The notes under the pieces: generated by a model
The model's database searches: none
Told to the model about the DNA's origin: nothing
Seen by the model: the letters and a program-made list of their open reading frames with translations, nothing else
Shown: in pieces, positions 2,278 through 20,523 of the stretch
Numbering within the stretch: position 1 is the stretch's first letter
How the letters are laid out: every line of letters starts with the position of its first letter
DNA from: Streptomyces sp. NBC_01255
Lineage (GTDB): Bacteria; Actinomycetota; Actinomycetes; Streptomycetales; Streptomycetaceae
Length of the DNA: 64,000 bases
Direction: 5' to 3'
Assembly: GCF_036226445.1 (NCBI RefSeq)
Contig: NZ_CP108474.1
Location: 7,936,001 to 8,000,000, forward strand
Program-made: the position numbers and the translations under genes

Positions 2278-3081
2278 ATGCCCGCCACCCCGAGCCCCGG
2301 ACCCGCGAGCCACGGACCCCTGAGCCCCGGACCCCCGAGCCACGGGCCCCAGTCCGTCGACCGGGCCCTCGCCGTGCTCGACGCCGTCGGCGACGCCGAC
2401 CGGCCCGTCGGGGCGAAGGCGCTGGCGCGACGGCTCGGCTGCGCGCTCTCGACCGTCTACCACGTCACCGGGCCCCTGCTCGCGCGCGGCTACCTCGTCC
2501 GCACCGCCGAGGGGTACGCGCCCGGGCCCCGCGTCCCCGCCCTGCACCGCTCCCACCAGCGCCACCACGGCCTCGGCGCCGGGACCGGCGAGCTCCTCGG
2601 CCGGCTGCGGCGGGCCACGGGAGCGGAGGCGTACCACACCGCCTACCGCGACGGACTGATCACCGTCGTCGACACCACCGCCCCGGTGACCGACACCGCC
2701 CACCCCTTCACCCCCGGCCCCGAGGACCGCGCGCACGCGACAGCCCACGGCAAGGCGCTCCTCGCCGCGCTCCCGCGCCCGCTGCGCCGCCGCTATCTCG
2801 CCGACCACGGCATGGCCCGCTTCACCGAGCGGACCATCACCAGCGCCGAACGCTTCGAGGCGGAGGCCGCCCAGGTGCGCGGCCAGGGGTTCGCCGTCTC
2901 GGTGGGCGAGGCGGACCTCGCCTACACCTGCCTCGCCGTGGCCCTGCCCGAGCGCGGCGACGGCATCGTCCACGCGCTGTCCGTCTCCCTCCCCACCGCC
3001 GACTTCGGACGGCGGCAGGGCGAACTCCGGGCGGCGCTCGCCCGCGCCGTACCCGACTTTCCGGCCCTGCCGGAATCCTGA
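2278..3081 (+). CDS. IclR-family transcriptional regulator
   Basis: 267 residues. After a Pro/Ser/Gly/His-rich N-terminal tail of about 24 residues comes a winged helix-turn-helix (QSVDRALAVLDAVGD through ALSTVYHVTGPLLARGYL, about residues 25-75) and then an IclR effector domain (about 90-265) with HATAHGKALLAALP and a C-terminal CLAVALPE segment. IclR proteins control small catabolic operons in response to aromatic or sugar-derived ligands. The ligand and target are unknown; the small monooxygenase gene 45 bases downstream on the same strand is the obvious candidate target or co-transcribed partner. Confidence 0.9.
   Translation: MPATPSPGPASHGPLSPGPPSHGPQSVDRALAVLDAVGDADRPVGAKALARRLGCALSTVYHVTGPLLARGYLVRTAEGYAPGPRVPALHRSHQRHHGLGAGTGELLGRLRRATGAEAYHTAYRDGLITVVDTTAPVTDTAHPFTPGPEDRAHATAHGKALLAALPRPLRRRYLADHGMARFTERTITSAERFEAEAAQVRGQGFAVSVGEADLAYTCLAVALPERGDGIVHALSVSLPTADFGRRQGELRAALARAVPDFPALPES
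2293..2352 (+). repeat. 30-bp tandem duplication in the IclR N-terminal tail
   Basis: Two near-identical 30-bp units (2293-2322 and 2323-2352) both starting AGCCCCGGACCC encode the repeated peptide SPGPxSHGPx. The duplication is in frame and lies before the DNA-binding domain. Confidence 0.85.
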
Positions 3082-3126
3082 CCGGCCCGGCTGGCCGACC
3101 GGGCGGGAGCGCCGCAGGGTGGACGC

Positions 3127-3456
3127 ATGATCTTCATCGCCGTCCGTTTCACCGCCCGTCCCGACCACGCCGACCGCTGGCTCGACCTGGTCGCCGACTT
3201 CACCCGCGCCACCCGCGAGGAGCCCGGCAACCTCTTCTTCGACTGGTCCCGGAGCGTCGACGACCCGAACGTCTTCGTCCTCCTGGAGGCGTTCGCCGAC
3301 GCCGAGGCCGGCGCCGCCCACGTCTCCTCCGCCCATTTCGCCGCCGGCCTCGCCGCCATGGCCGGCGCCATCGCCACGACCCCCGAGATCATCAACGTCG
3401 AGGTCCCGCAGCAGGGCTGGGGCGCCATGGCCGAGCTCGCCCCGACCGACGCCTGA
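3127..3456 (+). CDS. Putative quinol monooxygenase (ABM domain, YgiN-like)
   Basis: 109 residues, a single antibiotic-biosynthesis-monooxygenase fold: MIFIAVRFTARPDH at the start, then EEPGNLFFDWSRS and FVLLEAFADAEAGAAHVSSAHF, the pattern of YgiN-type quinol monooxygenases, which act as cofactor-free small dimers. It lies 45 bases after the IclR gene on the same strand and could be its target. CAGGGT lies six bases before the ATG, a weaker version of the leaderless pattern seen elsewhere here. Physiological substrate not deducible. Confidence 0.88.
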   Translation: MIFIAVRFTARPDHADRWLDLVADFTRATREEPGNLFFDWSRSVDDPNVFVLLEAFADAEAGAAHVSSAHFAAGLAAMAGAIATTPEIINVEVPQQGWGAMAELAPTDA

Positions 3457-3549
3457 GCACCCCGGCCCGCACGCCTCCGGGGGCCCCGGCCCGCCTGATA
3501 GGTTCGCGGAAACGCAGGCGGGGCGGCGGCCCGAGGGGAGAAGCGGCAC

Positions 3550-4584
3550 ATGGCGGTGAGCGGACGGCAGACCGGCAGGCCCACCCTGGAAGAGGTCGCG
3601 GCCCGGGCCGGAGTCGGCCGCGGCACGGTCTCCCGGGTCATCAACGGCTCCCCGAAGGTGAGCGAGCAGGCCAAGGCCGCCGTCGAACAGGCCGTCGCCG
3701 AACTCGGCTACGTCCCCAACCGGGCCGCCCGCGCCCTCGCCGGCAGCCGCACCGACGCCGTCGCCCTGGTGATCCCCGAGACCGAGGCGCGGCTCTTCGC
3801 CGAGCCGTACTTCCTCGACATCATCCGCGGCGTCAGCACCGAACTCGCCGACGCCGACAAGCAGTTGCTGCTCACCCTGATCCGCAGCGACCAGGAGCGC
3901 CAGCGCTTCGAGCAGTACCTCGCCGCCCAGCGCGTCGATGGCGTCCTGCTCGTCTCCGTGCACGGCGACGACCCGCTGCCGGACCAGGTCCGCGCCCTCG
4001 GCCTGCCCGCCGTCCTCAACGGCCGTCGCCGAGAGGACGAGCGCGTCGCCTTCGTCGACTCCGACAACACCGGCGCCGGCCGGACCGCCGTCGCCCACCT
4101 CGCCGCGCGCGGCCGGCGCGGCATCGCCACCATCACGGGCCCCCTCGACATGTACGTGGCGCGCTGCCGGCTCGACGGCTACCGCGAGGGCCTGGCGGAG
4201 GCCGGACTCGCCCCCGACGAGGCCCTCGTCGCCAACGGAGACTTCACCGAGGAGGGCGGCCGGCGCGCCATGCGGGAACTCCTCGACCGCAGGCCCGGCC
4301 TCGACGCCGTCTTCGCCGCCTCCGACGTGATGGCCGCCGGCGCGCGCGGGGTGCTGCGCGAGGCGGGCCGCCGGGTCCCCGAGGACGTCGCGCTCGTCGG
4401 CGTCGACGACTCGGCCGTCGCCCGGCACATGGACCCGCCCCTCACGAGCGTCCGGCAGCCCATCGAGGAGATGGGCCGCACGATGGCGCGCCTCCTCCTC
4501 CAGGAGATCGCCGAGCCCAGCGAGCCGGACGAGCAGCCCCGCCGGATGCTGCCCACCGAGCTGGTCGTCCGCGGCTCTTCCTGA
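3550..4584 (+). CDS. LacI-family transcriptional regulator
   Basis: 344 residues. The N-terminal helix-turn-helix and hinge (PTLEEVAARAGVGRGTVSRV through NRAARALAG, about residues 10-62) is canonical LacI, followed by a periplasmic-binding-protein-like effector domain to the end (ALVIPE... VGVDDSAVARHMDPPLTSVRQP). The start ATG is preceded by GGGGAGAAG, a good ribosome binding site. LacI proteins usually repress sugar uptake and catabolism. No sugar transporter is adjacent; the next gene is the GGDEF-EAL fusion 230 bases downstream, so the regulon is unclear. Confidence 0.93.
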   Translation: MAVSGRQTGRPTLEEVAARAGVGRGTVSRVINGSPKVSEQAKAAVEQAVAELGYVPNRAARALAGSRTDAVALVIPETEARLFAEPYFLDIIRGVSTELADADKQLLLTLIRSDQERQRFEQYLAAQRVDGVLLVSVHGDDPLPDQVRALGLPAVLNGRRREDERVAFVDSDNTGAGRTAVAHLAARGRRGIATITGPLDMYVARCRLDGYREGLAEAGLAPDEALVANGDFTEEGGRRAMRELLDRRPGLDAVFAASDVMAAGARGVLREAGRRVPEDVALVGVDDSAVARHMDPPLTSVRQPIEEMGRTMARLLLQEIAEPSEPDEQPRRMLPTELVVRGSS

Positions 4585-4715: not shown

Positions 4716-4814
4716 TGCAGCCCGCTCCGGGCCCCCGGACAATGGACACCGTACGGGGTCCGTATCCGCGACCAGGGCGCTTCCCTCGGCGTCCGACCCG
4801 GCAAGGGGGCCACG

Positions 4815-7800
4815 ATGGCGTTGCGTCAGCCGATCCGGTCACACACCGCCTCCGGGTCACTACGCACGTGGACGCTGGTCTATCTCGTGGCCGTCACCCT
4901 GCTGACGCTCGCGTACCTCCAGTTCCCGGCCCGGCACACCATCCTCTGGGCACTCATCGGACTCGGCGGCGTCGTCGCCATCCTCGTCGGCGTCCATCTG
5001 CACCGGCCCGCCCGCCGCTGGCCCTGGCTGGTGCTCGCCGCCGCCAACTTCGCCTTCGTCGCCGGAGACACCGCCTACAACGTCCTGGAGGGCTTCTTCG
5101 GCCAGACCCGGCCCTTCCCCTCCGTCGCCGACGCCCTGTACCTGGCCACGTACCCCCTGTTCGCCATCGGCCTCTTCGGCTTCATCCGCTACCGGGCCGC
5201 CGGCCGCGACCTCGCGGTCGTCCTCGACGCGCTGATCCTCACCTCGGGAATCGCGCTGCTCTCCTGGGTCAACCTCATCACCCCGCTCGCCCGGAGCGAG
5301 GACATGACCTGGACCGAGAAGGCCATCTCCATCGCCTATCCCCTCGGCGACGTCCTGATGCTCGCGATGCTCGCCCGGCTGCTCGTCCCCGGCGGCCTGC
5401 GCTCCCGGTCCGTGCAGCTCCTCACCCTCGGCACCTGCGGCATCCTCGCCTCCGACGTCATCTACGGCACGCTCCAGCTCAAGGGCACCTGGCAGGTCGG
5501 CACACCGTGGGACCTCGGCTGGGTCGTGTTCTTCACCGCCTGGGGCCTCGCCGCGCTCCACCCCTCGATGACCGGCCTCACCGAGCGCGCCCCCGAACCG
5601 GCACCGCGCGTCGCGGAACGCCGCCTCGCGCTCCTCGCCGGCGCCTCCCTCGTCGCCCCCGCCCTGCTCCTCTTCCAGTCGCTGCGCCTCGACAAGGACC
5701 AGGACATCGGCGTCATCGCGATCTTCTCGGCGCTGATGTTCCTGCTGGTCCTCGCCCGACTGTGGAGCATGATGACCGCTCACGGGAAGGCCGAGGCGCG
5801 CGAGCGCAGCCTCCGGGTCGCCGCCGCCTCCCTCGTCGCCGCCCTGAGCCCCCGGGAGGTCGCCGGATCGGTGGAGACGGCCTCCGCGACGCTCTTCGGT
5901 CCCGGCACCGATCACCGGGTCCTCCTCTTCACCCGTGACCGCAAGGGCGGCCTCACGGCCGTGGCCACCGTGGCCCACCCGTGGAGCTGTAGTACCGACC
6001 GGCTGACGCTCCCTCCCACGACGGCCTGGCCCGAGCTCGTCGCCCACGGTGCCCGGCTCCTCCCCGTGACCCGGCTCGACCCCGCCGTCGCCGCCGAGGC
6101 GGCGCCCGAGTCCCACGCGCTGCTCTGCCCCCTGGAGCTCCAGACGCCGACCGGACGCGAATCGATGCTCGGCGTGCTGCTCCTCGCGGGACCCGAGAAG
6201 AAGCTCTCCGAGATCGCGGGCCCCGCCCAGTCGCTCGCCTCCCAGGCGGCCCTCGCCCTGGAACGCTTCGGGCTCACGGAGGAGGTCAACCGCCGGACGA
6301 GCGAGGCCTACTTCCGGACGCTCGTCCACAACACCTCGGACGTCATCCTCATCGTCGACGACGACGACACCGTCCGGTACGCGAGCCCGTCCGCCGAGTC
6401 CATGTTCGGTCACTCCCTGCTCCCGGGCACCCCGCTCACCGAGCTGCTCGCCCCCGCCGACCAGGCCAGCGCCCTGCGCATCCTCGCCGACGCCCGTTCG
6501 CACGACGCGGTCGACGCCCGGGACGACTGGAAACTGCTCCACGGCGGCGCCGGCGGCGGCTCCACCGACCTCCAGGTCGAGGTCCGGTGCAGCAACCTCC
6601 GCAACGAACGCACCGTGCACGGTCTCGTCCTCACCCTGAGGGACGTCACCGAACAGCGGAAGCTGGAACGGGAACTCACCCACCGGGCCTTCCACGACTC
6701 CCTCACGGGCCTCCCCAACCGCGTCCTGCTGCTCGAACGGATCGAGCGCGCCCTGCTCCGCGGCCGCCGCGAATCCACCCTGACCTGCATGCTCTTCGTC
6801 GACCTCGACGACTTCAAGGTCGTCAACGACACCATGGGGCACTCCGTCGGCGACGAACTCCTCGTCGCCGTGGCCCGCCGCCTCACCTCCGTCCTGCGGC
6901 TCACCGACACGGCGGCCCGGCTCGGCGGCGACGAGTTCGCCGTCCTCATCGAGGGGGCCAGGGAACCCCGCGACGCCGAGACCCTCGCCGCCGAGATCGT
7001 GCACACGCTCAGCCAGCCCTTCCACCTCACCGACGGAGCCGTCTCCGTCTCCACGAGCGTCGGCATCGCGACCGTCCTCGACAGCGCGCACGCCGAGGAG
7101 CTCCTCGGCCACGCCGACCTCGCCCTGTACGCGGCGAAGGCGGCCGGCAAGAAGCGGTGGCGGCTCTTCCACCCGGAACTCCACTCCCGGCTCGTCGCCC
7201 GGCACGAGCTCCAGGCGGGCATGGACACGGCCATCGCCGACCACGCCTTCGCCTTGCGCTACCAGCCCATCGTGGAGGTCGACGGCGGCGCCACCGCCGG
7301 CCTGGAAGCGCTCATCCGCTGGCCGCACGCCCGGCGCGGGATGGTGCCGCCCGACCAGTTCATCACCCTGGCCGAGGAGAGCGGCCACATCATGCCGCTG
7401 GGCGCCTGGGTCCTCGAACACGCGGCACTCGACATCGCGCGCTGGCAGCGCTCCCGACCGCACCGGCCGCCCTTGTACGCCAACGTCAACGTCTCCGCCC
7501 GCCAGTTCCGCGACCCGGGGTTCCTCGAAGGGGTCAAGCGCACCCTCCGCTCCTCCGGGCTCGCGCCGGGCTCGCTCGTCCTGGAGCTCACCGAGACCGT
7601 CCTCATGCGCCAGGACACCCAGATCCGGACGACCATGGCCGCCCTGAAGGACCTCGGAGTCTCGATCGCCATCGACGACTTCGGCACCGGCTTCTCCTCG
7701 CTCAGCTATCTCCGCGAGTTCCCGATCGACATCCTCAAGGTCGACAAGTCGTTCATCGACGACATCACGACCGACCCCCAGCAGGTCGCCCTCGTGGAGG

Positions 7801-9407
7801 GCATCGTGCGCATCGCCGACGTCCTCGGCCTGCTGGTCGTCGCCGAGGGCATCGAGCACGAGGAGCAGCGGGAGCTCCTCGCCGAGATGGGCTGCCGCTA
7901 CGGGCAGGGCTACCTCTTCGCCCGGCCGATGACCGTCCACCAGGCCGACTCGTACCTGCACCGCGCCCCGTCCCCGGGCGCCCACCGCGCCGTCCGCCCG
8001 GCTCGGCCCGTCTCCCCGGCCGCACCGGGAACCGCCCCCGCCACCGTCCCCACCAGCGCGGGTGTCGGCACCCCCGCCCCCGCAATCGGACCGGCCCGAG
8101 CCCCCGGACCCACCGCCGCGACCGCCCGGACCGGCCGGCCGCCGCGCCCCTCCCGCTGGCGCGATCTGGAGCACCTCCAGCGGACCAGCCTCATGTGCGA
8201 CGCCGTCATCGACGAGATCGACGGCCGCCGCATCCGGGTCGGCGACGACTGGCTCGTCGACTTCGCCTCCTGCAACTACCTCGGCTTCGACCTCGACCCC
8301 ACGATCATGGCGTCGATCGAACCGGAGGTCAGACGGTGGGGCACCCACCCGAGCTGGTCCCGGCTCATCGGCAGTCCGCGGCTCTACCCGCGCATCGAGG
8401 AGCGGCTCACCGAACTCCTGGGCGCCCCCGACACCCTCCTGCTGCCCACGATCACCCTCATCCACCAGTCCGTCATCCCGCTCCTGGCCGGCACGGGCCA
8501 GGTCTTCGTCGAGGCACAGGCCCACCGCACCGTGTACGACGGCTGTGTCGTCGCCCGCGGCCAGGGCGCCGAGATCCACCGCTTCAGCGCGGACCGGCCC
8601 GAGGAGCTGGCCTCGCTGCTCCGCGGCGCCCCCGGCGACGCCGGCCGGCTCGTCTGCATGGACGGTGTCAACAGCATGACCGGCAACTTCCCGGACCTGC
8701 GGACCCTGGCCAGGATCTGCCGGGAGAACGGCGCCCTGCTGTACGTCGACGACGCCCACGGCTTCGGCGTCATCGGAGAGCGAACCGCGGACGAGAGCAG
8801 CCCGTACGGCTCGCGCGGCAACAGCATCGTCCGCCACCTCGGCGAGACCTACGACGACCTGGTGCTCGTCGGCGGCTTCTCCAAGGCGTTCTCCTCGCTG
8901 CTCGCCTTCCTCGCCGTCCCGAAGTGGCTCAAGGACCACCTGAAGGTGGCGGCGGCCCCGTACCTCTACTCAGGCCCCTCGCCGACGGCCTCCCTCGCCA
9001 CCGCCCTCGCCGGGCTCGACGTCAACGACGAGCGCGGCGACGAGATCCGGGCCGACCTCTACCGCAAGACGGCCCGGGTCCTCGCCCACGTCCGGGGCCT
9101 CGGCCTCGCCACCCCGAACACCGACGGGCTGCCGATCGTCGAGATCCCGCTCGCCGACTCCGCGGACCTCGACGCCGTCGCCGCCTTCCTCTGGGAGCAC
9201 GGGATCTACGTGACGCTCGCCTCCTACCCGCTCGTCCCGCGCGACCGGGTCGGCTTCCGCATCCAGGTCACCGCCGCCAACACCGACGAGGAGATCGACC
9301 AATTGTGCGAGGCCCTCACGGCGCTCGCCGAGCGGTTCACCCTCCAGCACGCCGACGTCCAGCGCCCCGGTGCCATCGCGGCCGGCCGCCGGCCGCCCGA
9401 GCGGTGA
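4815..9407 (+). CDS. Membrane GGDEF-EAL c-di-GMP protein fused to an alpha-oxoamine-synthase-like PLP enzyme
   Basis: 1,530 residues in one uninterrupted frame. Residues 1-320 hold about eight to ten membrane segments, then a GAF-like region (about 335-490), a PAS domain (about 500-620), GGDEF (GGDEF at 704-708, with an inhibitory-site RLTD at 695-698) and EAL (EAL at 831-833, DDFGTGFSS from 954). Both enzymatic motifs are intact, so it could make or degrade c-di-GMP. After a Pro/Ala-rich linker (about 1055-1110) comes a full fold-type I PLP domain (1115-1515) resembling 8-amino-7-oxononanoate synthase, serine palmitoyltransferase and CqsA: NYLGF at 1154, His1237, DDAH with Asp1312 and His1315, and the Schiff-base lysine at about 1357 in GGFSKAFSS. 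ATG start with GGGGGCC-type weak ribosome site. The stop overlaps the next gene as TGATG. The fusion product is unknown. Confidence 0.93.
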   Translation: MALRQPIRSHTASGSLRTWTLVYLVAVTLLTLAYLQFPARHTILWALIGLGGVVAILVGVHLHRPARRWPWLVLAAANFAFVAGDTAYNVLEGFFGQTRPFPSVADALYLATYPLFAIGLFGFIRYRAAGRDLAVVLDALILTSGIALLSWVNLITPLARSEDMTWTEKAISIAYPLGDVLMLAMLARLLVPGGLRSRSVQLLTLGTCGILASDVIYGTLQLKGTWQVGTPWDLGWVVFFTAWGLAALHPSMTGLTERAPEPAPRVAERRLALLAGASLVAPALLLFQSLRLDKDQDIGVIAIFSALMFLLVLARLWSMMTAHGKAEARERSLRVAAASLVAALSPREVAGSVETASATLFGPGTDHRVLLFTRDRKGGLTAVATVAHPWSCSTDRLTLPPTTAWPELVAHGARLLPVTRLDPAVAAEAAPESHALLCPLELQTPTGRESMLGVLLLAGPEKKLSEIAGPAQSLASQAALALERFGLTEEVNRRTSEAYFRTLVHNTSDVILIVDDDDTVRYASPSAESMFGHSLLPGTPLTELLAPADQASALRILADARSHDAVDARDDWKLLHGGAGGGSTDLQVEVRCSNLRNERTVHGLVLTLRDVTEQRKLERELTHRAFHDSLTGLPNRVLLLERIERALLRGRRESTLTCMLFVDLDDFKVVNDTMGHSVGDELLVAVARRLTSVLRLTDTAARLGGDEFAVLIEGAREPRDAETLAAEIVHTLSQPFHLTDGAVSVSTSVGIATVLDSAHAEELLGHADLALYAAKAAGKKRWRLFHPELHSRLVARHELQAGMDTAIADHAFALRYQPIVEVDGGATAGLEALIRWPHARRGMVPPDQFITLAEESGHIMPLGAWVLEHAALDIARWQRSRPHRPPLYANVNVSARQFRDPGFLEGVKRTLRSSGLAPGSLVLELTETVLMRQDTQIRTTMAALKDLGVSIAIDDFGTGFSSLSYLREFPIDILKVDKSFIDDITTDPQQVALVEGIVRIADVLGLLVVAEGIEHEEQRELLAEMGCRYGQGYLFARPMTVHQADSYLHRAPSPGAHRAVRPARPVSPAAPGTAPATVPTSAGVGTPAPAIGPARAPGPTAATARTGRPPRPSRWRDLEHLQRTSLMCDAVIDEIDGRRIRVGDDWLVDFASCNYLGFDLDPTIMASIEPEVRRWGTHPSWSRLIGSPRLYPRIEERLTELLGAPDTLLLPTITLIHQSVIPLLAGTGQVFVEAQAHRTVYDGCVVARGQGAEIHRFSADRPEELASLLRGAPGDAGRLVCMDGVNSMTGNFPDLRTLARICRENGALLYVDDAHGFGVIGERTADESSPYGSRGNSIVRHLGETYDDLVLVGGFSKAFSSLLAFLAVPKWLKDHLKVAAAPYLYSGPSPTASLATALAGLDVNDERGDEIRADLYRKTARVLAHVRGLGLATPNTDGLPIVEIPLADSADLDAVAAFLWEHGIYVTLASYPLVPRDRVGFRIQVTAANTDEEIDQLCEALTALAERFTLQHADVQRPGAIAAGRRPPER

Positions 9408-10210
9408 TGGACACGACCGGGCGTTCCGGCCCGCCGTACCCGTCGCACGCGCCGGGCCGGTGGAACCGGTCGGCGGGGCCGCGCCGCAACAGGGACGCCG
9501 ACTGGAACGCCTGGCCCGTCGCGGACTACCTCGCCGAGAACTACCGCAGGCTCCACCCGTGCGACGTCGGCGTCATCCGCCACCACGCCGCCGTCTACCG
9601 GACCTTCGCCCCCGGCGCCCTTCCCCGCACCCTCGAACTGGGCGCGGGCCCGAACCTCTACCCCCTGATGCAGGCGGGCGCCGCCAGCCTCCGTGTCGAC
9701 GCCCTGGAACCGAGCGCCGCCAACGTCCGCTATCTGCGCCAGCAGCTCGACAACGGCCCCGACGACAGCTGGCGGCCCTTCTACACCCTGTGCCGCAGCC
9801 TCGACCCCGCACTCCCGGAGAGCTGTACGGACGCGCTCCGCCGGGTCCGGGTCGTGCCGGGCACCGCGGAGGAACTGACCGACGGCACGTACGCCCTCGC
9901 GTCGATGAACTTCGTCGCCGAGAGCGTCACCGAGGACTTCGCCGAGTTCACGGCCCTCTGCGACACCTTCGTCCGGGCGGTCCGCCCCGGCGGCCGCCTC
10001 GTCGCCTCCTTCATGGAACGCATGCCGAGCTACCGCATCGGAGAGGGGCCGGTCTGGCCGGCCTGCCCGGTCGACGGCGCCGCCCTGCAGGCCGTCTTCG
10101 GACCCCGCACCACCGGCCTGCGGATCGAGCGACTCGCCAAGGACCGCACCCTGCCCGAATACGGCGACACCGGCGTCCTGCTCATGACAGCACTGCGGTC
10201 CGACACCTGA
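9407..10210 (+). CDS. SAM-dependent methyltransferase (NNMT/PNMT/TEMT-like), coupled to the fusion gene
   Basis: 267 residues. A class I methyltransferase fold: TLELGAGPNLYP is the SAM-binding glycine motif, DALEPSAANVRYL the acidic post-beta-2 segment, and VRPGGRLVASFME the motif after beta-5. DWNAWPVADYLAENYR near the N-terminus resembles the N-terminal helix of the NNMT/PNMT/TEMT small-molecule methyltransferases. Its ATG overlaps the stop codon of the 1,530-residue fusion (TGATG), so the two are translated together. The inference is that it modifies the product of the PLP domain or a related amine. Confidence 0.88.
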   Translation: MDTTGRSGPPYPSHAPGRWNRSAGPRRNRDADWNAWPVADYLAENYRRLHPCDVGVIRHHAAVYRTFAPGALPRTLELGAGPNLYPLMQAGAASLRVDALEPSAANVRYLRQQLDNGPDDSWRPFYTLCRSLDPALPESCTDALRRVRVVPGTAEELTDGTYALASMNFVAESVTEDFAEFTALCDTFVRAVRPGGRLVASFMERMPSYRIGEGPVWPACPVDGAALQAVFGPRTTGLRIERLAKDRTLPEYGDTGVLLMTALRSDT

Positions 10211-10318: not shown

Positions 10319-11410
10319 TCATCTCAGCAGCTCCCGGTAGAGCGCCGCGTACCGGGCGGCGAACCGTTCGGGGCCGAAGTGGTCCTCGGCCAGGGCCCGT
10401 CCGCGCTCCGCGAGCACGTCCCAGGAGCGCGGCTGGTCGAGCAGCCACGCCAGTTGCTGTCCGGTGCGTCGCGCGTCGCCCGCGGGCGCCCGCAGCACGG
10501 CGTGGCCGAAGTCGGCGAACTGCGGCAGGTCGCTGAGGACGGCAGGCCGTCCCGAGGCCAGCGACTGGAGCACGATGAGCGGGATGTCCGCCTTGCCGCC
10601 GAGCACGGCCGGTGCGTACACCAGCACGTGGGCCGAGGCGATCAGGGCCCGCATGTCCTCGACGTGACCCCGGACTTCGACGTCGGGGAGCCCCGTCGCG
10701 CCGGCCCGCTCCCGCAGCGCCTGGTCCAGCAGCCCGGAATGCTGCCCCGGCCGCCTGCGCATCGCGAGCACCAGCCGGAACCTGGCGCCCGCCCGCCACG
10801 CCTCGGCCGCCGCGTCGATCGCCGTCTCCGCGCCGCCCCGCAGATCGTGGTACCCGGCGAAGAGGACCATCGGATACCCCCGCGGGCGCGGCAGATACGG
10901 CCATTGGTCCAAGTCGATCATGGGCGGGATCACCCGTACGTCCCCGAAGTCCGCGGACCGCAGCCGCCGCGCCATCGACTCCGACAGGGCGACCGTCGCT
11001 CCCAGGGGCCGGGAGCGGGCCAGGAAGCGGCAGTCCGCGACCCCGGGCACCGTGTGCACGACCGGCCGCCCCCCGAGGAACAGCGGGCGGAGCCACGAGA
11101 AGACCGGGAAGGCGCTGCCGACGGAGAGGAAGGCATGGACGAGGTCGACCCGGCGGGCGAACACGGCTCCGGCGAGTACGGCCTGCACCCGCTGCGGGAC
11201 GTGGGAGACGCCGTCGCGGGAGAGCATGCGGACCGGGCGCCCACGCCGCGGCGGGTCCCGCCCGTGGTCCGGCCACCGGGCGAACCAGACGAAGTCGACG
11301 TCGGGCAGCGCTTCGAGGACGTCGGAGGCGAGCCGCACGTCGGAGCCCTCCGTCCCGTCCAGCGGGCCGCCGGTCAGGAGCAGCACCCGGGGCCGCTCAT
11401 GGCGGACCAT
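10319..11410 (-). CDS. GT4-like glycosyltransferase (group 1)
   Basis: 363 residues with a GT-B architecture: N-terminal RPRVLLLTGGPLDGTEGSD, central VRVIPPMIDLDQWPY and MVLFAGYHDLRGG at the domain joint, and a C-terminal donor domain. The usual EX7E donor-site signature of GT4 is altered to DIPLIVLQSLASG, with Asp and Gln in place of the two glutamates, so its donor or activity may differ. The ATG at 11410 has GGAGG six bases upstream and overlaps the stop of a 19-codon ORF. Last gene of a minus-strand glycan block that includes two further glycosyltransferases. Confidence 0.85.
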   Translation of the reverse strand: MVRHERPRVLLLTGGPLDGTEGSDVRLASDVLEALPDVDFVWFARWPDHGRDPPRRGRPVRMLSRDGVSHVPQRVQAVLAGAVFARRVDLVHAFLSVGSAFPVFSWLRPLFLGGRPVVHTVPGVADCRFLARSRPLGATVALSESMARRLRSADFGDVRVIPPMIDLDQWPYLPRPRGYPMVLFAGYHDLRGGAETAIDAAAEAWRAGARFRLVLAMRRRPGQHSGLLDQALRERAGATGLPDVEVRGHVEDMRALIASAHVLVYAPAVLGGKADIPLIVLQSLASGRPAVLSDLPQFADFGHAVLRAPAGDARRTGQQLAWLLDQPRSWDVLAERGRALAEDHFGPERFAARYAALYRELLR

Positions 11411-11469
11411 CACGCGCCTCCGTCCCCGTCGAGGCCGCGGCGCGGGGAACCGTACAGGGGGATCGTCAC
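11410..11469 (-). CDS. 19-residue overlapping mini-ORF
   Basis: GTG start with GGAGG six bases upstream; the product begins MTIPLYGSPRRG and ends in a Gly/Asp-rich tail. Its GTG overlaps the stop of the 55-residue ORF (GTGA) and its own stop overlaps the ATG of the glycosyltransferase (TGATG). The arrangement suggests a translational-coupling relay; a functional peptide is possible but not shown. Confidence 0.4.
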   Translation of the reverse strand: MTIPLYGSPRRGLDGDGGA

Positions 11470-11633
11470 GACACACCTCCGGGGGAACGGGCCCGGCGAC
11501 GGCCCCTCCGGGCGGTTTCAGGCAGCGCGCCACAGGAGAGCACGGCGTCGGCCAGGTGCGGAGAGAGCACCGGCATGGGGGCGTCCGGTCCGAGGCCGGT
11601 CCGGACGAAGCCGGTCAGCGGGTCGACTGCCAT
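11466..11633 (-). CDS. 55-residue small protein between kinase-GT4 fusion and GT4
   Basis: ATG with GAGGGGG five bases upstream. It overlaps the 3' end of the fusion gene by 19 bases and is followed by the 19-residue mini-ORF with a GTGA overlap. The product is hydrophilic, has one cysteine (LSCGALPET) and an Arg-rich stretch ARRGRRRARS near the C-terminus. No family recognised. The good ribosome binding site, GC-rich third positions and tight packing favour a real gene. Confidence 0.5.
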   Translation of the reverse strand: MAVDPLTGFVRTGLGPDAPMPVLSPHLADAVLSCGALPETARRGRRRARSPGGVS

Positions 11634-13501
11634 GACGTCCCCCTCTTCCTCGGCCGCCGTGCGGGGGCGGGTGCGTCCAGGAGCCGGTGGGCCAGGGCCA
11701 GATAGCGGCCCGTCATCTCGTCCCACGTGTAGTGCCGGGCGGCGAGCGCGGAGCGCCGGCCCAGGCCGCGGCGGAGCGCCGCGTCGCGGGCCAGCTCGCC
11801 CATCCGGTCGCCGAAGGCCGCCACGTCGAACGGCGGGACGGCCACGTCGCCGCCGTCGCGCATCCAGCGCAGGGCGGGCAGGTCGAAGTGGAGGACGGGC
11901 TTGCCGTACGCCATGCCTTCGAGAGCCACGAGACCGAACGTCTCGTGGCGGGAGGGCATCACGAGGAAGGCGCTGTCGCGCAGCAGTTGCCGCCTGCGCT
12001 CCTCGTCGGCGCAGCCCACCCAGTGGATCCGGGGCTCGGGTCCCCCCGCGCGGGCGGCGACGAGCGCCGCGAGCCGGCGTTCCTCGGCCGGCGTGCCACT
12101 GCCCGCGAGCAGCAGCTCCAGGGGTGCCCCGGCCCGGTCGTAGGCGTCGAGGAGCAGGTCGAGGCCCTTGGCCCAGGTGTCGATCCGCCCCAGGAAGAGG
12201 ATGAACTGCCCCCTGCCGAGCCGGGATTCGTCGAGGAGGCGCGGCTCCACGCCGTTGGCGATGACCTGGACGTCGGCGCGGGGGCTGAGCCGGCGGATCG
12301 CCGAGGCGTCCGCCGCGTTCATCGCCACCAGGTGGCGGTAGCGGCTCAGCCCGAGCCGTTCGGCCAGGACGAACGGCACGCGGTAGCGGCGCCACAGCGT
12401 CTCGGTGCCGCGGTTCTGGTCGATGCCGACGACGGGCGCGTGGGTCGCCAGGGGCAGCAAGCCGGTCGAGAACGGGGGAGTGAAGCTCTCCAGCCACAGG
12501 TCGTGCCGGATGCGACGGGCCGCGAACGGCAGCAGCGCCAGGAACACCAGCCGCCCGGCGCGCGGGCCCGCGCGGCCCACCGGCAGTCGTACGTACCGGA
12601 TGCCGTCGCGGTACTCGGTCCCGGCGCGGCGGCCCGCCGTCACGACCGTCACGCGGAAGTCCTCCGCGAGCCTGCGGGCCACCTTGCCGACGACCACGGC
12701 ACCGCCGCCCCGGTAGCCGGGGCCGACGACCACGGCACCGCCGCCCCGGTAGCCGGGGCCGTCGGCGTCGTCGTAGACCGACAGGACCACGTGCTGACGG
12801 GCATCGGCGCCGTGCTCGGCGCCCCCGCCGTCCTCCTCGGGCCTCGGCGGGGGCGTCCGCACCACGTCGAGGATCTGCTCCAGCATGCCTGCCGCGACGA
12901 GCGACGGGGGCCGCGCTCCGTCGATGTGCACCACGTGCGGCAGCCGCGCGGACCAGGACCGGTAGCGGGCCCGCAAGGCGGCGGGGGAGCCGGCGAGCAC
13001 CTGTGGGCCGCGCCCGAGCAGCGTGTCGGTCCCGGTCTCCACGAGGAGCGTCAGGGCGTACCGGCCGGCCAGCCGGCGGAAGGCGCCGGCCGCCGCCGAC
13101 GAGGCGGGCGGGCCGAATCTCACCAGACCGTCGAGGGGCCCCCGGTCGGTCAGGACCACGGCCTGCCTGCCGTGCGCCCGCGCGGTCGCCGTCAGCCTGG
13201 CCGCCGTGATCCGCACCGCCAGCTCGGCGGCGTCGAGGAACGCGTGGGCGCGGCGCGGCAGGGATCCCCGGCGCACGGGATCCGATGCCCGCCGTGCCCA
13301 CCGCTCACCCGGTTCCCCCTCTTCCCTCACCCGCGGCGGAACCGGGAACCTGCGGCACAGGAAACAGCCGTGGCCTTGCGTGGTGACGACGTGCACCCCC
13401 CGCTCCCCGAGCAGCGCCGTGAGCCTGCGGAGCAGCGAGGACCGGCCCGCTCCTTCCGGACCGGACACCGCCACCAGCAGAACGCCGCGTGAGGTCGTCA
13501 T
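11615..13501 (-). CDS. Fusion of thymidylate-kinase-like P-loop domain and GT4 glycosyltransferase
   Basis: 628 residues. Residues 1-215 resemble a thymidylate-kinase-like P-loop domain: LLVAVSGPEGAGRSSLLRRL at the P-loop and VLTDRGPLDGL at the DR position. The Walker A lysine is replaced by Arg20, which would usually cripple phosphoryl transfer. Residues 235-625 are a GT4 glycosyltransferase with YRGGGAVVVG at the acceptor-domain glycine loop, IANGVEPRLLD, FLGRIDTWAKGLDLLLDAY and an intact EX7E in SRHETFGLVALEGMAYGKP. The gene carries a perfect 36-bp internal duplication at the domain junction. Start ATG overlaps an uncertain upstream frame as ATGA. Confidence 0.88.
   Translation of the reverse strand: MTTSRGVLLVAVSGPEGAGRSSLLRRLTALLGERGVHVVTTQGHGCFLCRRFPVPPRVREEGEPGERWARRASDPVRRGSLPRRAHAFLDAAELAVRITAARLTATARAHGRQAVVLTDRGPLDGLVRFGPPASSAAAGAFRRLAGRYALTLLVETGTDTLLGRGPQVLAGSPAALRARYRSWSARLPHVVHIDGARPPSLVAAGMLEQILDVVRTPPPRPEEDGGGAEHGADARQHVVLSVYDDADGPGYRGGGAVVVGPGYRGGGAVVVGKVARRLAEDFRVTVVTAGRRAGTEYRDGIRYVRLPVGRAGPRAGRLVFLALLPFAARRIRHDLWLESFTPPFSTGLLPLATHAPVVGIDQNRGTETLWRRYRVPFVLAERLGLSRYRHLVAMNAADASAIRRLSPRADVQVIANGVEPRLLDESRLGRGQFILFLGRIDTWAKGLDLLLDAYDRAGAPLELLLAGSGTPAEERRLAALVAARAGGPEPRIHWVGCADEERRRQLLRDSAFLVMPSRHETFGLVALEGMAYGKPVLHFDLPALRWMRDGGDVAVPPFDVAAFGDRMGELARDAALRRGLGRRSALAARHYTWDEMTGRYLALAHRLLDAPAPARRPRKRGTSWQSTR
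12687..12758 (-). repeat. Perfect 36-bp tandem duplication at the domain joint of the fusion
   Basis: Two identical 36-bp copies (12687-12722 and 12723-12758) encode a repeated twelve-residue block containing GPGYRGGGAVVV, that is, the glycine-rich loop of the GT4 domain twice. The frame is kept. Confidence 0.95.
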
Positions 13502-14028
13502 GGCAGGCGCCCCTTGGGCTTCCCGCCCACCGCGTGCCCGCCGAACACCGCGTCTCCGCGCACGTCGCGGTACCCCAGGGCGCGCGAGCCGGGGTACCGC
13601 GACGAGTCGAGGGTGTGGTGGGAGAAGGCGCGGCGCGTGGCGCGCGCGGCAGAGCGGGGGATCAGGGCGGGGGCGGGGGCGGGGCGTCGACCAGGGCGAC
13701 GGCCGCGGTGGGCCTGGGCACGTGGGCCGTCAGGCCCGGAGGGGGCGTCGGATCCGGCTGGGCCACCGGAACCGGCTGGGCCACCGGAACCGGTGCGGCT
13801 CCGGGCGTGTGTCCTGACGGTACGAGCGCGACGGCGGCGGGCGGCGCCCCGGGGCCTGCACGCCCTGCTGAGGGGCGGAGGAGCGGCCGCGCGGAGCCGG
13901 TCGGAGACCCGGCGGGCCGGGTGAGCGGTCGGGCGGTGCGGGGCGCGGCAGACGGGACTGCGTCGGGCCTCGGCGAGGGGCCAGTCGGTCACCCGCCGCA
14001 GGGGATGCGGAACGGGTGCCGCCGGCAC
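13498..14028 (-). CDS. Uncertain Arg/Pro-rich ORF upstream of the kinase-GT4 fusion
   Basis: An open frame ending in an ATGA overlap with the fusion gene. The last 50 codons (from about AFSHHTLDSSRYPGSRALGY to the stop) have strongly GC-ending codons and could be coding. The upstream part is low-complexity Arg/Pro/Ala and a second frame there also reads as a Pro-rich tail (PVPVAQP repeats), so most of this stretch may be spacer. No ribosome binding site at the GTG (14028); a TTG at 14148 is the only other upstream start. It may also be a decayed gene. Confidence 0.25.
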   Translation of the reverse strand: MPAAPVPHPLRRVTDWPLAEARRSPVCRAPHRPTAHPARRVSDRLRAAAPPPLSRACRPRGAARRRRARTVRTHARSRTGSGGPAGSGGPAGSDAPSGPDGPRAQAHRGRRPGRRPAPAPALIPRSAARATRRAFSHHTLDSSRYPGSRALGYRDVRGDAVFGGHAVGGKPKGRLP

Positions 14029-14119
14029 GCGGTTGATATGGCGTGAGGTCACAACGAGCCTCTTCCGGACAACCGACCCAACCGAGGGTCTGCTCTGGCC
14101 TGAAATCATGCTCTTTCCA

Positions 14120-14148
14120 GCCTTAGCCCCCCGGGTGCGATTCGTCAA
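14120..14148 (-). promoter_or_regulatory. Candidate promoter for the kinase-GT4 / GT4 unit
   Basis: On the minus strand TTGACG (14143-14148) and TAAGGC (14120-14125) are separated by 17 bases, a good sigma-70/HrdB-like arrangement in a stretch with visibly lower GC. It would read into the frame at 13498-14028 and the fusion gene. Confidence 0.4.
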
Positions 14149-14195
14149 CCGGAGGAGTCGGCCGGAGGTCCCGGGCGGAGGTCCCGGGCGGAGGG

Positions 14196-15014
14196 TCAGC
14201 CAGGGGGTCGGCCGGTGGCGTCCAGCGGCGGACTGCCGGGGCCTCCCTGGCCGTGCCGGGAGCGGCCGTGGGCGAACCGCGAGAGGGCGTTGTGCGGCCT
14301 TTCGTCGAGGAGCGTGCCGAGGATGCGGGCGCCGTCGCGGACCGTGCGGGGGTGCGAAGGGCCGTGGCGGCGCGGCAGTTCGCGACTGGGGACTTCGGCG
14401 ACGCGCAGCCCGTAGTGCAGGGCGTGCGTCACGAGCTCGGCGCCGAGCTCGACACCGTCCTCGCGCAGGTCGAGAAGGTCGACGAAGCCCCGCCGGAACG
14501 CACAGAATCCGTACCAGAGATCGGTGAGCTGCTGGCCGTACAGCCGGCGCGCGACCCGGAGCAGGGCGCGATGGCCGAGGCGGCGCGCGAGCGGATAGTC
14601 GGCGACGTCCCCGCCCGCGATGAAACGGGATCCCTTGACGAAGTCGAATCCGCTCTCCAGGTAATACAGGTAGTGCGGGATCTCGTGCGGCGACATGCTG
14701 CCGTCGGCGTCCATCAGCACGATCAGATCCCCGGTGGCCGCGCGCAGCCCCGCGTGCGGAATGTCGCCCCGGGCGAAGTCCCAGGCCCCGAGCGTCCGGA
14801 TGGTCATGCCGTCCCGCGCGGGACGCGTGCCCGTCGGTCCGCCGATCAGGACCACGTCCCGCACGTCCTCCGGCATCTGGTCGAGCAGCAGGTCGAGCGC
14901 GTGTCCCGGGTCCCGTCCGTCGGGGCGGACCGTCAGGACGAGGCTCACGGTGCGCGTGCCGGAGCCCGGCACCCGGTCGGTCGACCGGCGGAGGGGATGC
15001 GCGTCACTACCCAT
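14196..15014 (-). CDS. GT2-family glycosyltransferase (polyprenyl-phosphate mannosyl/glucosyltransferase-like)
   Basis: 272 residues with a GT-A fold: SLVLTVRPDGRDPG near the start, GLRAATGDLIVLMDADGSMS containing the metal-binding DxD (DAD), and FVKGSRFIAGGD and LTDLWYGFCAFRR typical of dolichol-phosphate-mannose-synthase-like enzymes. No C-terminal membrane helices, so it is probably a soluble or peripheral enzyme loading a lipid carrier. The ATG at 15014 has GGAAGG eight bases upstream; the open frame extends 50 codons further but without coding character. Divergent from the GH15 gene; first gene of the minus-strand glycan block. Confidence 0.88.
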   Translation of the reverse strand: MGSDAHPLRRSTDRVPGSGTRTVSLVLTVRPDGRDPGHALDLLLDQMPEDVRDVVLIGGPTGTRPARDGMTIRTLGAWDFARGDIPHAGLRAATGDLIVLMDADGSMSPHEIPHYLYYLESGFDFVKGSRFIAGGDVADYPLARRLGHRALLRVARRLYGQQLTDLWYGFCAFRRGFVDLLDLREDGVELGAELVTHALHYGLRVAEVPSRELPRRHGPSHPRTVRDGARILGTLLDERPHNALSRFAHGRSRHGQGGPGSPPLDATGRPPG

Positions 15015-15163
15015 GGGTACGGCCTTCCGCGAGGCGAACCCGCGTAATTCAGAATCCTGCGGGGAAGGCGATGCCGTCAAGGAAACCGGAAGAATATGCG
15101 GAAGGCCGCGAAAGAATACCCTTCCCCGCCGCCGCTGTTTCTGCGCGAGATTTCTGAACGGCA

Positions 15164-15169
15164 TACAAT
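15164..15169 (+). promoter_or_regulatory. -10 element (TACAAT) of leaderless GH15 gene
   Basis: TACAAT, one mismatch from the consensus -10, lies six bases (CCGGTC) before the ATG at 15176 with no ribosome binding site between. Confidence 0.6.
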
Positions 15170-15175
15170 CCGGTC

Positions 15176-17026
15176 ATGGCAGGGCGAATTGAAGACTACG
15201 CCCTCGTCGGGGACCTGGAGACGGCCGCGCTCATCGGGACCGACGGGTCCGTCGACTGGTGGTGCGCGCCCCGCTTCGACTCGCCCGCCTGTTTCGCGGC
15301 CCTCCTCGGCGATCCCGGTCACGGCCGGTGGATCCTCGCCCCGGTCGGGAAAACCCGCTGCACGCGCAGGAGTTACCGAGGCGACACGCTTGTCCTCGAC
15401 ACGTTCTGGGAGTCTCTCACCGGCACCGTCCGGGTCACCGACTTCATGCCCCCGCGCTCCCCGGACTCCTCCCACGAGAGCGGGCCGAGGATCGTCCGCG
15501 TCGTCGAGGGGATCGCAGGCCGCGTCGCCATGCGCGGCGAGTCGAGACTCCGCTTCCACCACGGCAGCATCGTGCCCTGGACCCGTGCGCTGGACCGGCA
15601 CACCGTCGCCTGCGTCGCGGGACCCGACGCCGCCTATCTTTCCTGCGGCCCCGGAGCCGACCCCGTCGTCACGTCGGACCGTACGACCGTCGAGTTCACC
15701 GTCACCGCCGGGAGCAGCGTCGCGTTCGTCCTCGGCTGGCGCCCCTCGCACGCCTCCGTGCCCCCCACCGCCTCGCCCGCCGAGATCGACGCCACCCTTC
15801 TGCGTACCCTCGACTTCTGGAACGACTGGGCGGGCGCGCTCCGTTACGAAGGGCCGGCCAGGGAGGCCGTCCTCCGCTCCCTCCTCACCCTCAAGGCCCT
15901 CACCTACGCCCCCACCGGCGGTGTCGTCGCGGCCGCCACCGCCTCCCTCCCCGAGAGCATCGGAGGGCAGCGCAACTGGGACTACCGTTTCTGCTGGCTG
16001 CGCGACTCCACCTTCACCCTGTCCTGTCTGCTGCGCGGCGGATTCCGGCGGGAGGCGATGGCCTGGACGGACTGGCTGCTCCGGGCCGTCGCGGGCGATC
16101 CCGCCGACCTCCAGCCGCTGTACGGGGTCGAGGGGCAGCGCCGGCTTCCCGAGACGTACGCCGACTGGCTTCCCGGCTACGAGAATTCACGCCCCGTCAG
16201 ATTCGGTAACGCGGCCGTCGACCAGTTCCAGCTCGACATCTACGGCGAGGTGCTCAACACCGTCTACTCGGCCGTACGGGCCGGGGTCGCCGTCGACCCG
16301 CCGGCCTGGGCGCTGGTGGCCGAGCTCCTGGAATACCTCGGGACGCGCTGGCAGGAACCCGACGAGGGCATCTGGGAAGTCCGGGGCCCGCGCCGCCACT
16401 TCGTCCACTCCAAGGTCATGGCCTGGGTCGCCGCCGACCGCGCCGTGCGCCTCGCCCGCGTCGCCGGCCTGCGCGGCACCGTGCGCCGCTGGCAGGCCCT
16501 GCGCCACGAGATCCACGCGGAGATCTGCGCCCAGGGCTGGAGCGAGGAGCAGCAGTCGTTCACGCAGTACTACGGCAGCCCCCAGGTCGACGCCACCGCC
16601 CTGCTGATCCCCCGGCTCGGTTTCCTCCCCGCCGACGACCCCCGGGTCCTCGGCACCGTCAAGGCGATGGGACGGCTCGACGGGCACGGATTCCTCCGCC
16701 GGTACGGCGACGTCCGGGACGGCGGGACACACCGCCTCGACGACCTCGGCGGCACCGAAGGGGCCTTCGTCGCGTGCACGTTCTGGTACGCCGACGCCCT
16801 CGCCGCCACCGGCCGCCCCGCCGAGGCCCGCACCGTCTTCGAGCGGGTCCTCGCCATCCGCAACGACGTCGGGCTGCTCGCCGAGGAATGGGACCCGGTG
16901 GCCGGCCGCCAGCTCGGCAACACGCCGCAGGCGCTCAGCCACGTGGCACTGGTGAACACCGCCTTCACGCTGTACGGCACACGCCGCCACGACCGGGCGG
17001 CCGCCCACCGTCTCGCCGTGGCGTGA
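15176..17026 (+). CDS. Glycoside hydrolase family 15 (glucoamylase/trehalase-like)
   Basis: 616 residues, the usual length of bacterial GH15 proteins. The N-terminal beta-sandwich starts IEDYALVGDLETAALIG and contains GSVDWWCAPRFDSPACFA; the catalytic (alpha/alpha)6 barrel shows NWDYRFCWLRDSTF, an acid-bearing GIWEVRG and the closing LAEEWDPV...LGNTPQALSHVALV. These are hallmarks of cytoplasmic actinobacterial GH15 enzymes, some of which are trehalases rather than glucoamylases; the sequence does not decide. No signal peptide. Divergent from the GT2 gene, so it may remodel glucans or trehalose linked to the neighbouring transferases. Confidence 0.92.
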   Translation: MAGRIEDYALVGDLETAALIGTDGSVDWWCAPRFDSPACFAALLGDPGHGRWILAPVGKTRCTRRSYRGDTLVLDTFWESLTGTVRVTDFMPPRSPDSSHESGPRIVRVVEGIAGRVAMRGESRLRFHHGSIVPWTRALDRHTVACVAGPDAAYLSCGPGADPVVTSDRTTVEFTVTAGSSVAFVLGWRPSHASVPPTASPAEIDATLLRTLDFWNDWAGALRYEGPAREAVLRSLLTLKALTYAPTGGVVAAATASLPESIGGQRNWDYRFCWLRDSTFTLSCLLRGGFRREAMAWTDWLLRAVAGDPADLQPLYGVEGQRRLPETYADWLPGYENSRPVRFGNAAVDQFQLDIYGEVLNTVYSAVRAGVAVDPPAWALVAELLEYLGTRWQEPDEGIWEVRGPRRHFVHSKVMAWVAADRAVRLARVAGLRGTVRRWQALRHEIHAEICAQGWSEEQQSFTQYYGSPQVDATALLIPRLGFLPADDPRVLGTVKAMGRLDGHGFLRRYGDVRDGGTHRLDDLGGTEGAFVACTFWYADALAATGRPAEARTVFERVLAIRNDVGLLAEEWDPVAGRQLGNTPQALSHVALVNTAFTLYGTRRHDRAAAHRLAVA

Positions 17027-17146
17027 GCGCCCCGCCGCGTCCGGTCGAGCCGCCGGGAAGCGGCACACAGCCCCGCCAGAACCTTCGGCGTGTCGTTCGG
17101 GTGCATCCAGCGGGCGGGTGCGCCGCGCGTGGGTTCGAATCGGGGC

Positions 17147-20480
<3,334 letters not shown>

Positions 20481-20523
20481 TCCGGCGCGCGACCCGGTCA
20501 CCCGCTCCCGGCGGATGACACGT

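Follow-up and report, generated by a model that had tools for sequence, protein, structure and literature searches.

A membrane GGDEF-EAL protein fused to an alpha-oxoamine synthase

We analysed a stretch of 64,000 nucleotides (hereafter the window) from Streptomyces sp. NBC_01255, contig NZ_CP108474.1, positions 7,936,001 to 8,000,000 of the forward strand, in which one gene encodes a predicted membrane protein of cyclic di-guanosine monophosphate (c-di-GMP) signalling joined in frame to an alpha-oxoamine-synthase (AOS) domain (Table 1). The open reading frame (ORF; 4815-9407, + strand) begins with ATG and specifies 1,530 amino acids, and its Pfam domains above cut-off are, in order, PAS (within residues 499-615), GGDEF (625-781), EAL (805-1038) and Aminotran_1_2 (1184-1501). 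The RxxD motif of the inhibitory site (I-site) lies at residues 695-698, and the GGDEF, EAL and DDFGTG motifs at 704, 831 and 954. Judged from these intact motifs and I-site, the protein is of the GGDEF-EAL type predicted to turn over c-di-GMP. The original prediction, made from the sequence alone, had placed a membrane domain, GAF-like and PAS domains, GGDEF with RxxD, EAL, a Pro/Ala linker and a pyridoxal 5'-phosphate (PLP) domain in a single 1,530-codon frame. ORF, Pfam, motifs and structure model confirm this arrangement, except that the GAF-like domain is present only as a weak stretch, GAF_3 reaching E 0.07, below the cut-off. The overlap between the stop codon and the start of a methyltransferase gene, likewise predicted, is seen directly in the sequence as TGATG.

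Table 1 Features of the fusion gene and the overlapping methyltransferase gene in the window
Feature	Position	Strand	Basis
Likely ribosome-binding site, AAGGGGG	4803..4809	+	Sequence, five bases 5' of ATG
Single coding sequence, TM-GAF?-PAS-GGDEF-EAL-AOS fusion (TM, transmembrane), CdgF-type by architecture	4815..9407	+	ORF and Pfam
Membrane sensor domain, about ten helices, residues 1-320	4815..5774	+	Structure model; partner of AOS across loci
GAF-like stretch (weak), residues 325-490	5787..6284	+	GAF_3 E 0.07, under cut-off
PAS domain, residues 499-611	6309..6647	+	Pfam
GGDEF domain, residues 625-781, GGDEF motif and RxxD I-site intact	6687..7157	+	Pfam and sequence
EAL domain, residues 805-1038, EAL and DDFGTG motifs intact	7227..7928	+	Pfam and sequence
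Pro/Ala-rich linker, residues 1055-1116	7977..8162	+	14 P and 15 A per 62 residues
AOS domain (fold-type I PLP), residues ~1117-1507; H1237, D1312, H1315, K1357, R1482	8163..9335	+	Pfam, NCBIfam, PDB alignment, conservation
TGATG stop/start overlap	9405..9409	+	Sequence
S-adenosylmethionine (SAM) methyltransferase, 267 amino acids, NNMT/INMT/PNMT-like fold (model)	9407..10210	+	ORF, Pfam, NCBIfam, structure model

The fusion is conserved in Streptomyces

A genome scan for the AOS domain kept 80 loci of 93 matches, 35 from Streptomyces and 45 from outside the genus (the named loci), and a separate genus sample covered 295 Streptomyces genomes. In the genus sample AOS was present in 52 genomes, the membrane sensor domain in 55 and both in 51 (Fisher 3e-51, a value that ignores relatedness). 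Of the 52 AOS-bearing genomes, 38 encode the sensor together with AOS in a single intact frame and nine have the two as tandem genes. The two matches share an identical open frame in 32 genomes, and reading the remaining loci added six intact fusions; in five of the 32 a TGA was flagged inside the match, and on inspection these loci read through AOS uninterrupted, the stop coming only at its end. The other AOS genomes comprise two in which the parts are joined but broken elsewhere (G224, G251), one cut by a contig end (G256), one degraded copy (G009) and one fragment (G197). EAL and AOS are joined in frame in all 35 named Streptomyces loci, two of which (L054, L058) are broken elsewhere; several named loci duplicate genomes of the genus sample, and the two sets are thus not independent. 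The closest homologues of the window's AOS domain (92-93%) come from S. gardneri, S. narbonensis, Streptomyces sp. Root431 and S. tanashiensis, and the fused frame is retained down to about 70% AOS identity to the window's domain.

An assembly artefact or frameshift was rejected, since many genomes sequenced independently show the fused frame too. A break between the EAL and PLP parts, which the original prediction had named as its refuter, is excluded by dozens of other Streptomyces genomes in which the domains are read in a single open frame. The fusion is real and conserved, and it forms a component of a wider linked module.

The synthase and sensor genes are linked across Actinomycetota

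Outside Streptomyces, AOS is a separate gene in every named locus (0 of 45 fused), and a sensor domain lies within 6 kb of it in 33 of the 45. AOS is directly 3' of a sensor-GGDEF-EAL gene in 15 of these loci, has that gene downstream on the same strand in 10 and nearby on the opposite strand in 5. No EAL match was found within 7 kb in 15 of the 45 loci, three of which (L083, L099, L105) still carry the sensor domain. We also searched a phylum sample of 396 Actinomycetota genomes, with AOS at E 1e-70 and the sensor at E 1e-30. AOS was found in 26 genomes, the sensor in 52 and both in 26 (Fisher 1e-26, again ignoring relatedness). The 26 AOS genes include two from Streptomyces and three distant ones (40-42% identity); the other 21 were examined, and removal of four duplicates of named contigs left 17. 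A sensor lies within 6 kb of AOS in all 17 and an EAL domain within 8 kb in 12, some of these contigs ending within the flanks. Two of the three distant AOS genes have a sensor close by. In two Paractinoplanes loci (L083, L088) a pentapeptide-repeat gene stands directly 3' of the stand-alone AOS.

These orientations bear on whether the fusion might be accidental, a stop codon having been lost between neighbouring genes in Streptomyces with the parts still acting independently. The nine tandem arrangements among the 52 AOS-bearing Streptomyces genomes, where split and fused forms coexist, would suit such an origin; the neighbourhood is nevertheless kept across the phylum in several orientations, and the fused frame persists at AOS identities down to about 70%, and we regard this explanation as most improbable.

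The AOS domain has an intact active site

Serine palmitoyltransferase, KBL and BioF are the PDB chains most similar to the AOS domain, and CqsA ranks far below them (E 6e-36 for a serine palmitoyltransferase chain, E 7.5e-9 for a CqsA chain). Among the best 25 of 42 NCBIfam families, no AOS-type model reaches its cut-off, the equivalog scores being 176 of 426 bits for BioF, 154 of 500 for serine palmitoyltransferase and 135 of 460 for glycine C-acetyltransferase. The NCBIfam and PDB scores rule out that the domain is BioF, KBL, serine palmitoyltransferase or CqsA itself; by sequence comparison it belongs to the AOS superfamily. The link to CqsA/LqsA in the original prediction thus stands as a functional analogy, but not in sequence, where serine palmitoyltransferase, KBL and BioF are all nearer than CqsA.

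The active-site residues align with those of a serine palmitoyltransferase chain, and we take their roles to be those of the ring-stacking His, the Asp, the PLP Lys and the substrate Arg of AOS enzymes. His1237, Asp1312, His1315 and Arg1482 are invariant in 121 aligned AOS sequences (127 hits less 6 that were too short, with some genomes represented twice) and Lys1357 is kept in 119, in agreement with the earlier claim that the lysine, histidine and aspartate of the PLP domain are in place. The PLP lysine is replaced by Gln in locus L051 and by Asn in L118; in these two copies the enzyme may be inactive while the receptor still works. That the product would be an aminoketone is predicted from family membership.

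Two related loci hint at the substrate. In L222 (7733-11197) and L223 (5709-9203), from two genomes of one genus, AMP-binding, DIP2-like, PP-binding and AOS domains are fused in single proteins, with the AOS C-terminal and 41-42% identical; the neighbouring gene encodes a sensor-GGDEF-EAL protein in one and a sensor hybrid kinase in the other. DIP2-like domains presumably mark fatty-acyl-AMP ligases. Because ligase and PP-binding domains are fused to these AOS domains, their composition points to an acyl group that would be activated and then held on a carrier as the AOS substrate.

A methyltransferase accompanies the fusion

A methyltransferase gene lies within 3 kb of AOS in 33 of the 35 named Streptomyces loci, as against 1 of the 45 from outside the genus. 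The predicted coupling of the methyltransferase to AOS, and the physical tie of AOS to a membrane c-di-GMP protein, are supported and conserved. In Actinocatenispora (L094) the sensor-GGDEF-EAL, AOS and methyltransferase genes follow one another with a four-base overlap at each junction. The structure model of the window's methyltransferase (predicted local distance difference test, pLDDT, 87) has as its best 50 PDB matches only NNMT, INMT or PNMT chains, apart from two chains from a single entry titled simply methyltransferase. The Pfam score for the NNMT/PNMT/INMT family is 22.9 bits, below the cut-off of 25, and the fold match is strong (best E 1.2e-14). The protein scores 117 bits in the SCO2525-family methyltransferase model of NCBIfam, which requires 240, and so falls outside that family. 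Given these NNMT, INMT and PNMT matches to the model, the enzyme probably N-methylates an amine.

The membrane sensor domain is shared by c-di-GMP and kinase proteins

Residues 1-340 were modelled as a bundle of about ten long helices followed by a long exit helix (pLDDT 90). No Pfam family exceeds its cut-off within these 340 residues, and a PDB search with the model gave no match at E 0.001. A YhhN/lysoplasmalogenase fold was the single structural match, from a viral library (E 7e-4, TMq 0.56), and received no support from profile comparison. We built a midpoint-rooted tree of 108 sensor domains, left from 160 by an 85% identity filter, with outputs typed by motifs rather than Pfam. The tree divides 80/28 with support 0.93, and 69 of 71 AOS-linked tips, those bearing kinases among them, share one side, the window's own tip being counted as unlinked and L128 stopping at a contig edge. 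This side is not exclusive, as it also contains AOS-less Streptomyces paralogues, and the sensors of L066 and L083 lie outside it.

In seven loci (L202, L203, L207, L210, L214, L216 and L223) the sensor domain is joined to histidine-kinase domains, in proteins with no GGDEF or EAL in Pfam. Three of them (L202, L210, L216) have the gene order AOS, sensor-kinase, MFS_3, sensor-GGDEF-EAL, and the two sensor domains within each of the three loci are 57-68% identical, about the same as sensors of one type compared between loci. An output that varies while the sensor and the neighbouring synthase are conserved is what would be expected of a synthase/receptor pair. Locus L083, where AOS is divergent to a sensor-GGDEF protein, was set aside as proof of an output swap, having 62 query matches in its genome and a sensor outside the AOS-linked side of the tree. 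Beyond the original prediction, the conserved partner of AOS is the membrane sensor domain, with a histidine kinase as an alternative output, and an exporter joins the set.

The exporter is of the MFS_3 family. All seven tested copies of the gene from related loci (L048, L061, L066, L108, L202, L210, L216) exceed the Pfam cut-off, and a gene of this type lies within 7 kb of AOS in 16 of the 45 named non-Streptomyces loci and in 6 of the 17 phylum-sample loci.

The kinase versions and the exporter both bear on the direction of control. It could be the reverse of sensing the AOS product: the sensor would respond to something else, and AOS would be switched on or off by c-di-GMP or by a change in GGDEF-EAL conformation, making the protein a signal-controlled producer of a metabolite or lipid. 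Fusion would allow such direct control, a lipid product is possible for a domain scoring closest to serine palmitoyltransferase in the PDB, and half of the phylum genomes with the sensor (26 of 52) have no AOS. Against this, Pfam finds neither GGDEF nor EAL in the histidine-kinase versions near AOS, none of the 45 named loci outside Streptomyces has AOS and sensor in one protein, and an exporter beside the AOS or sensor gene suits a product that is released. We consider this reversed direction unlikely.

Sensor loci without AOS and neighbouring genes

We also hand-picked 14 AOS-less sensor loci from the sensor matches of the genus sample. In nine (L112, L114, L115, L116, L119, L120, L121, L122, L130), which hold paralogues resembling the published S. 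venezuelae protein CdgF, an AMP-binding/PP/thioester-reductase gene and a homologue of Leu/Phe-tRNA-protein transferase lie downstream (tblastn, with Pfam for L114, L115 and L122). Another small-molecule synthase is thus possibly paired with the same sensor family in these nine, by their gene content. This pairing fits a receptor and a pathway regulator alike, and the latter belongs to a further explanation, in which AOS, methyltransferase and exporter would make and pump out a specialised bioactive compound with the sensor-GGDEF-EAL protein as its local pathway regulator, as may hold where sensor proteins of this family adjoin the NRPS-like gene that ends in a reductase. Besides the nine hand-picked loci, the methyltransferase and MFS_3 genes would suit tailoring and export. 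A weak counterargument is that among the 30 largest neighbour clusters, only some of which were identified by Pfam, none other than sensor, AOS, MFS and regulator that spans distant lineages looked biosynthetic; we judge this explanation quite improbable. Three more AOS-less loci with CdgF-like paralogues (L113, L117, L129) sit amid genes that by eye resemble glycosyltransferases and nucleotide-sugar enzymes, perhaps polysaccharide clusters.

In the window itself (source genome 8.57 Mb, two contigs), genes for an IclR regulator, a LacI regulator and an ABM monooxygenase lie upstream, from 2278 to 4584. Two group-1 glycosyltransferases, a GH15 hydrolase, a PAP2 protein and a monomeric isocitrate dehydrogenase are encoded downstream (10319-20501), and relatives of the first of these glycosyltransferases recur near related Streptomyces loci by neighbour clustering.

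A candidate synthase/receptor module

We read the locus as the Streptomyces form of an actinobacterial signalling module of synthase, exporter and membrane receptor. Its membrane domain would sense the AOS product and act through c-di-GMP or a kinase; we give this reading an even chance of being right. The chemistry and the direction of control in such a module are proposed from genes and models. From an amino acid and an acyl thioester AOS would form, by condensation, an alpha-aminoketone, which in Streptomyces the NNMT-like enzyme would N-methylate. The product would leave the cell, through the MFS_3 pump where one is present, and be bound in the membrane by the ten-helix domain. Binding would be relayed through the GAF-like/PAS segment to GGDEF and EAL and so change c-di-GMP, with no prediction as to whether the cyclase or the phosphodiesterase is raised. 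With synthase and receptor in one polypeptide, production and perception in Streptomyces would be stoichiometric and co-located.

More tentatively, and with less confidence than doubt, we suggest that the 1,530-residue protein may be a self-contained signal synthase and receptor. Its own acyl aminoketone, N-methylated by the enzyme of the overlapping gene, would be sensed by its own ten-helix domain to set c-di-GMP, and the protein would represent, in fused form, an actinobacterial system that spans the phylum and uses one sensor family for c-di-GMP and histidine-kinase outputs.

Several observations weigh against the sensing of an AOS product. The sensor is linked imperfectly to AOS: a search of 6 kb around AOS shows no sensor in 12 of the 45 named loci from outside Streptomyces (11 Actinoplanes-type loci and Solirubrobacter soli), and L224, one of the three distant AOS genes, has none nearby. 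Because 26 of the 52 phylum genomes with the sensor have no AOS, and 12 Actinoplanes-type genomes each contain 47-93 matches to a sensor-GGDEF query (E 1e-20), the domain is, by its distribution, a general sensor and not specific to AOS. Nor is there any residue conserved at 85% or more in AOS-linked sensors yet below 40% in distant unlinked ones. An exporter is missing nearby in most loci, and only 3 of the 35 named Streptomyces loci have one. CdgF, the likely orthologue of the window protein by architecture, is among the least abundant according to the available text of the published study, where the four c-di-GMP genes affecting development do not include cdgF (PMC6205966).

The 12 genomes just mentioned (those of L077, L078, L080, L083-L085, L088, L089, L095, L096, L100 and L104) point to a very large family of membrane c-di-GMP proteins, though the GGDEF part by itself may account for some matches. 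Asp138, Asp179 and Asp214 of the sensor are conserved in unlinked sensors too, and so give no clue to the ligand.

Overall, we regard the module as the best single reading, with its chances about evenly balanced. A candidate signal synthase that is fused or adjacent to its candidate receptor makes both testable with one gene and one metabolite. If the reading is right, Actinomycetota would have an aminoketone-type signalling system, and an orphan protein of Streptomyces would be accounted for.

Comparison with known systems

CdgF (vnz_02140/sven_0451) of S. venezuelae is described as 10TM-PAS-PAC-GGDEF-EAL, with the key residues of both active sites, and occurs in the membrane fraction (PMC6205966); in the available text of a further paper its function is still to be defined (PMC13232838). 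The window protein has the same 10TM-PAS-GGDEF-EAL architecture, as compared with the published description and not by alignment to vnz_02140. As described, the two differ at the C-terminus, where the window protein and loci of other species (L029, L030, L038) have AOS; CdgF was published without it, no AOS being mentioned in the available text and 'transferase' having no match in its main text (PMC6205966). The only other sensor-domain match in the window's genome (E 0.01) was read in L269 as a full frame of 1,076 amino acids that keeps GGDEF and has no EAL or DDFGTG motif, the loss of EAL motifs published for CdgC. Because this second sensor-like protein has the CdgC-like loss, the window protein is left as the likely CdgF candidate, by architecture.

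In CqsA/CqsS of Vibrio and LqsA/LqsS of Legionella, a synthase of the AOS superfamily works with a membrane receptor kinase. The pairing of AOS with a sensor histidine kinase in the seven loci named above resembles these systems. The AOS domains here are only distantly alike to CqsA, and c-di-GMP output and fusion in Streptomyces set them further apart; the membrane domain also appears larger than that of CqsS, which we take to have six spans, in a comparison of span numbers rather than aligned sequences. The resemblance to CqsA/LqsA is therefore best described as functional analogy only.

We found no paper on AOS, CqsA or 8-amino-7-oxononanoate synthase fused with GGDEF-EAL in the open-access literature, a scope that mostly leaves out subscription papers. 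Pyr and PqrA are PLP enzymes that join an amino acid with succinyl-CoA, the Klebsiella products feeding pyrazine autoinducers; the likeness to AOS is drawn from their description, and the available text mentions no link to GGDEF-EAL (PMC11480411). At least two receptors of quorum-sensing molecules belong to c-di-GMP networks, as cited in the available part of a census (PMC8846402).

The nearest functional precedent, by analogy, is RpfF/RpfR of Burkholderia and Cronobacter, whose receptor, according to the available text, regulates c-di-GMP, perceives its signal and is in physical contact with the enzyme that makes it (PMC6361424). The products of RpfF are cis-2 fatty acids, and sensing in RpfR falls to a PAS domain that binds DSF, beside an N-terminal FI domain that contacts RpfF. 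In the window protein, by contrast, the synthase would be an AOS, the candidate sensor is the membrane domain and the contact between the two is covalent.

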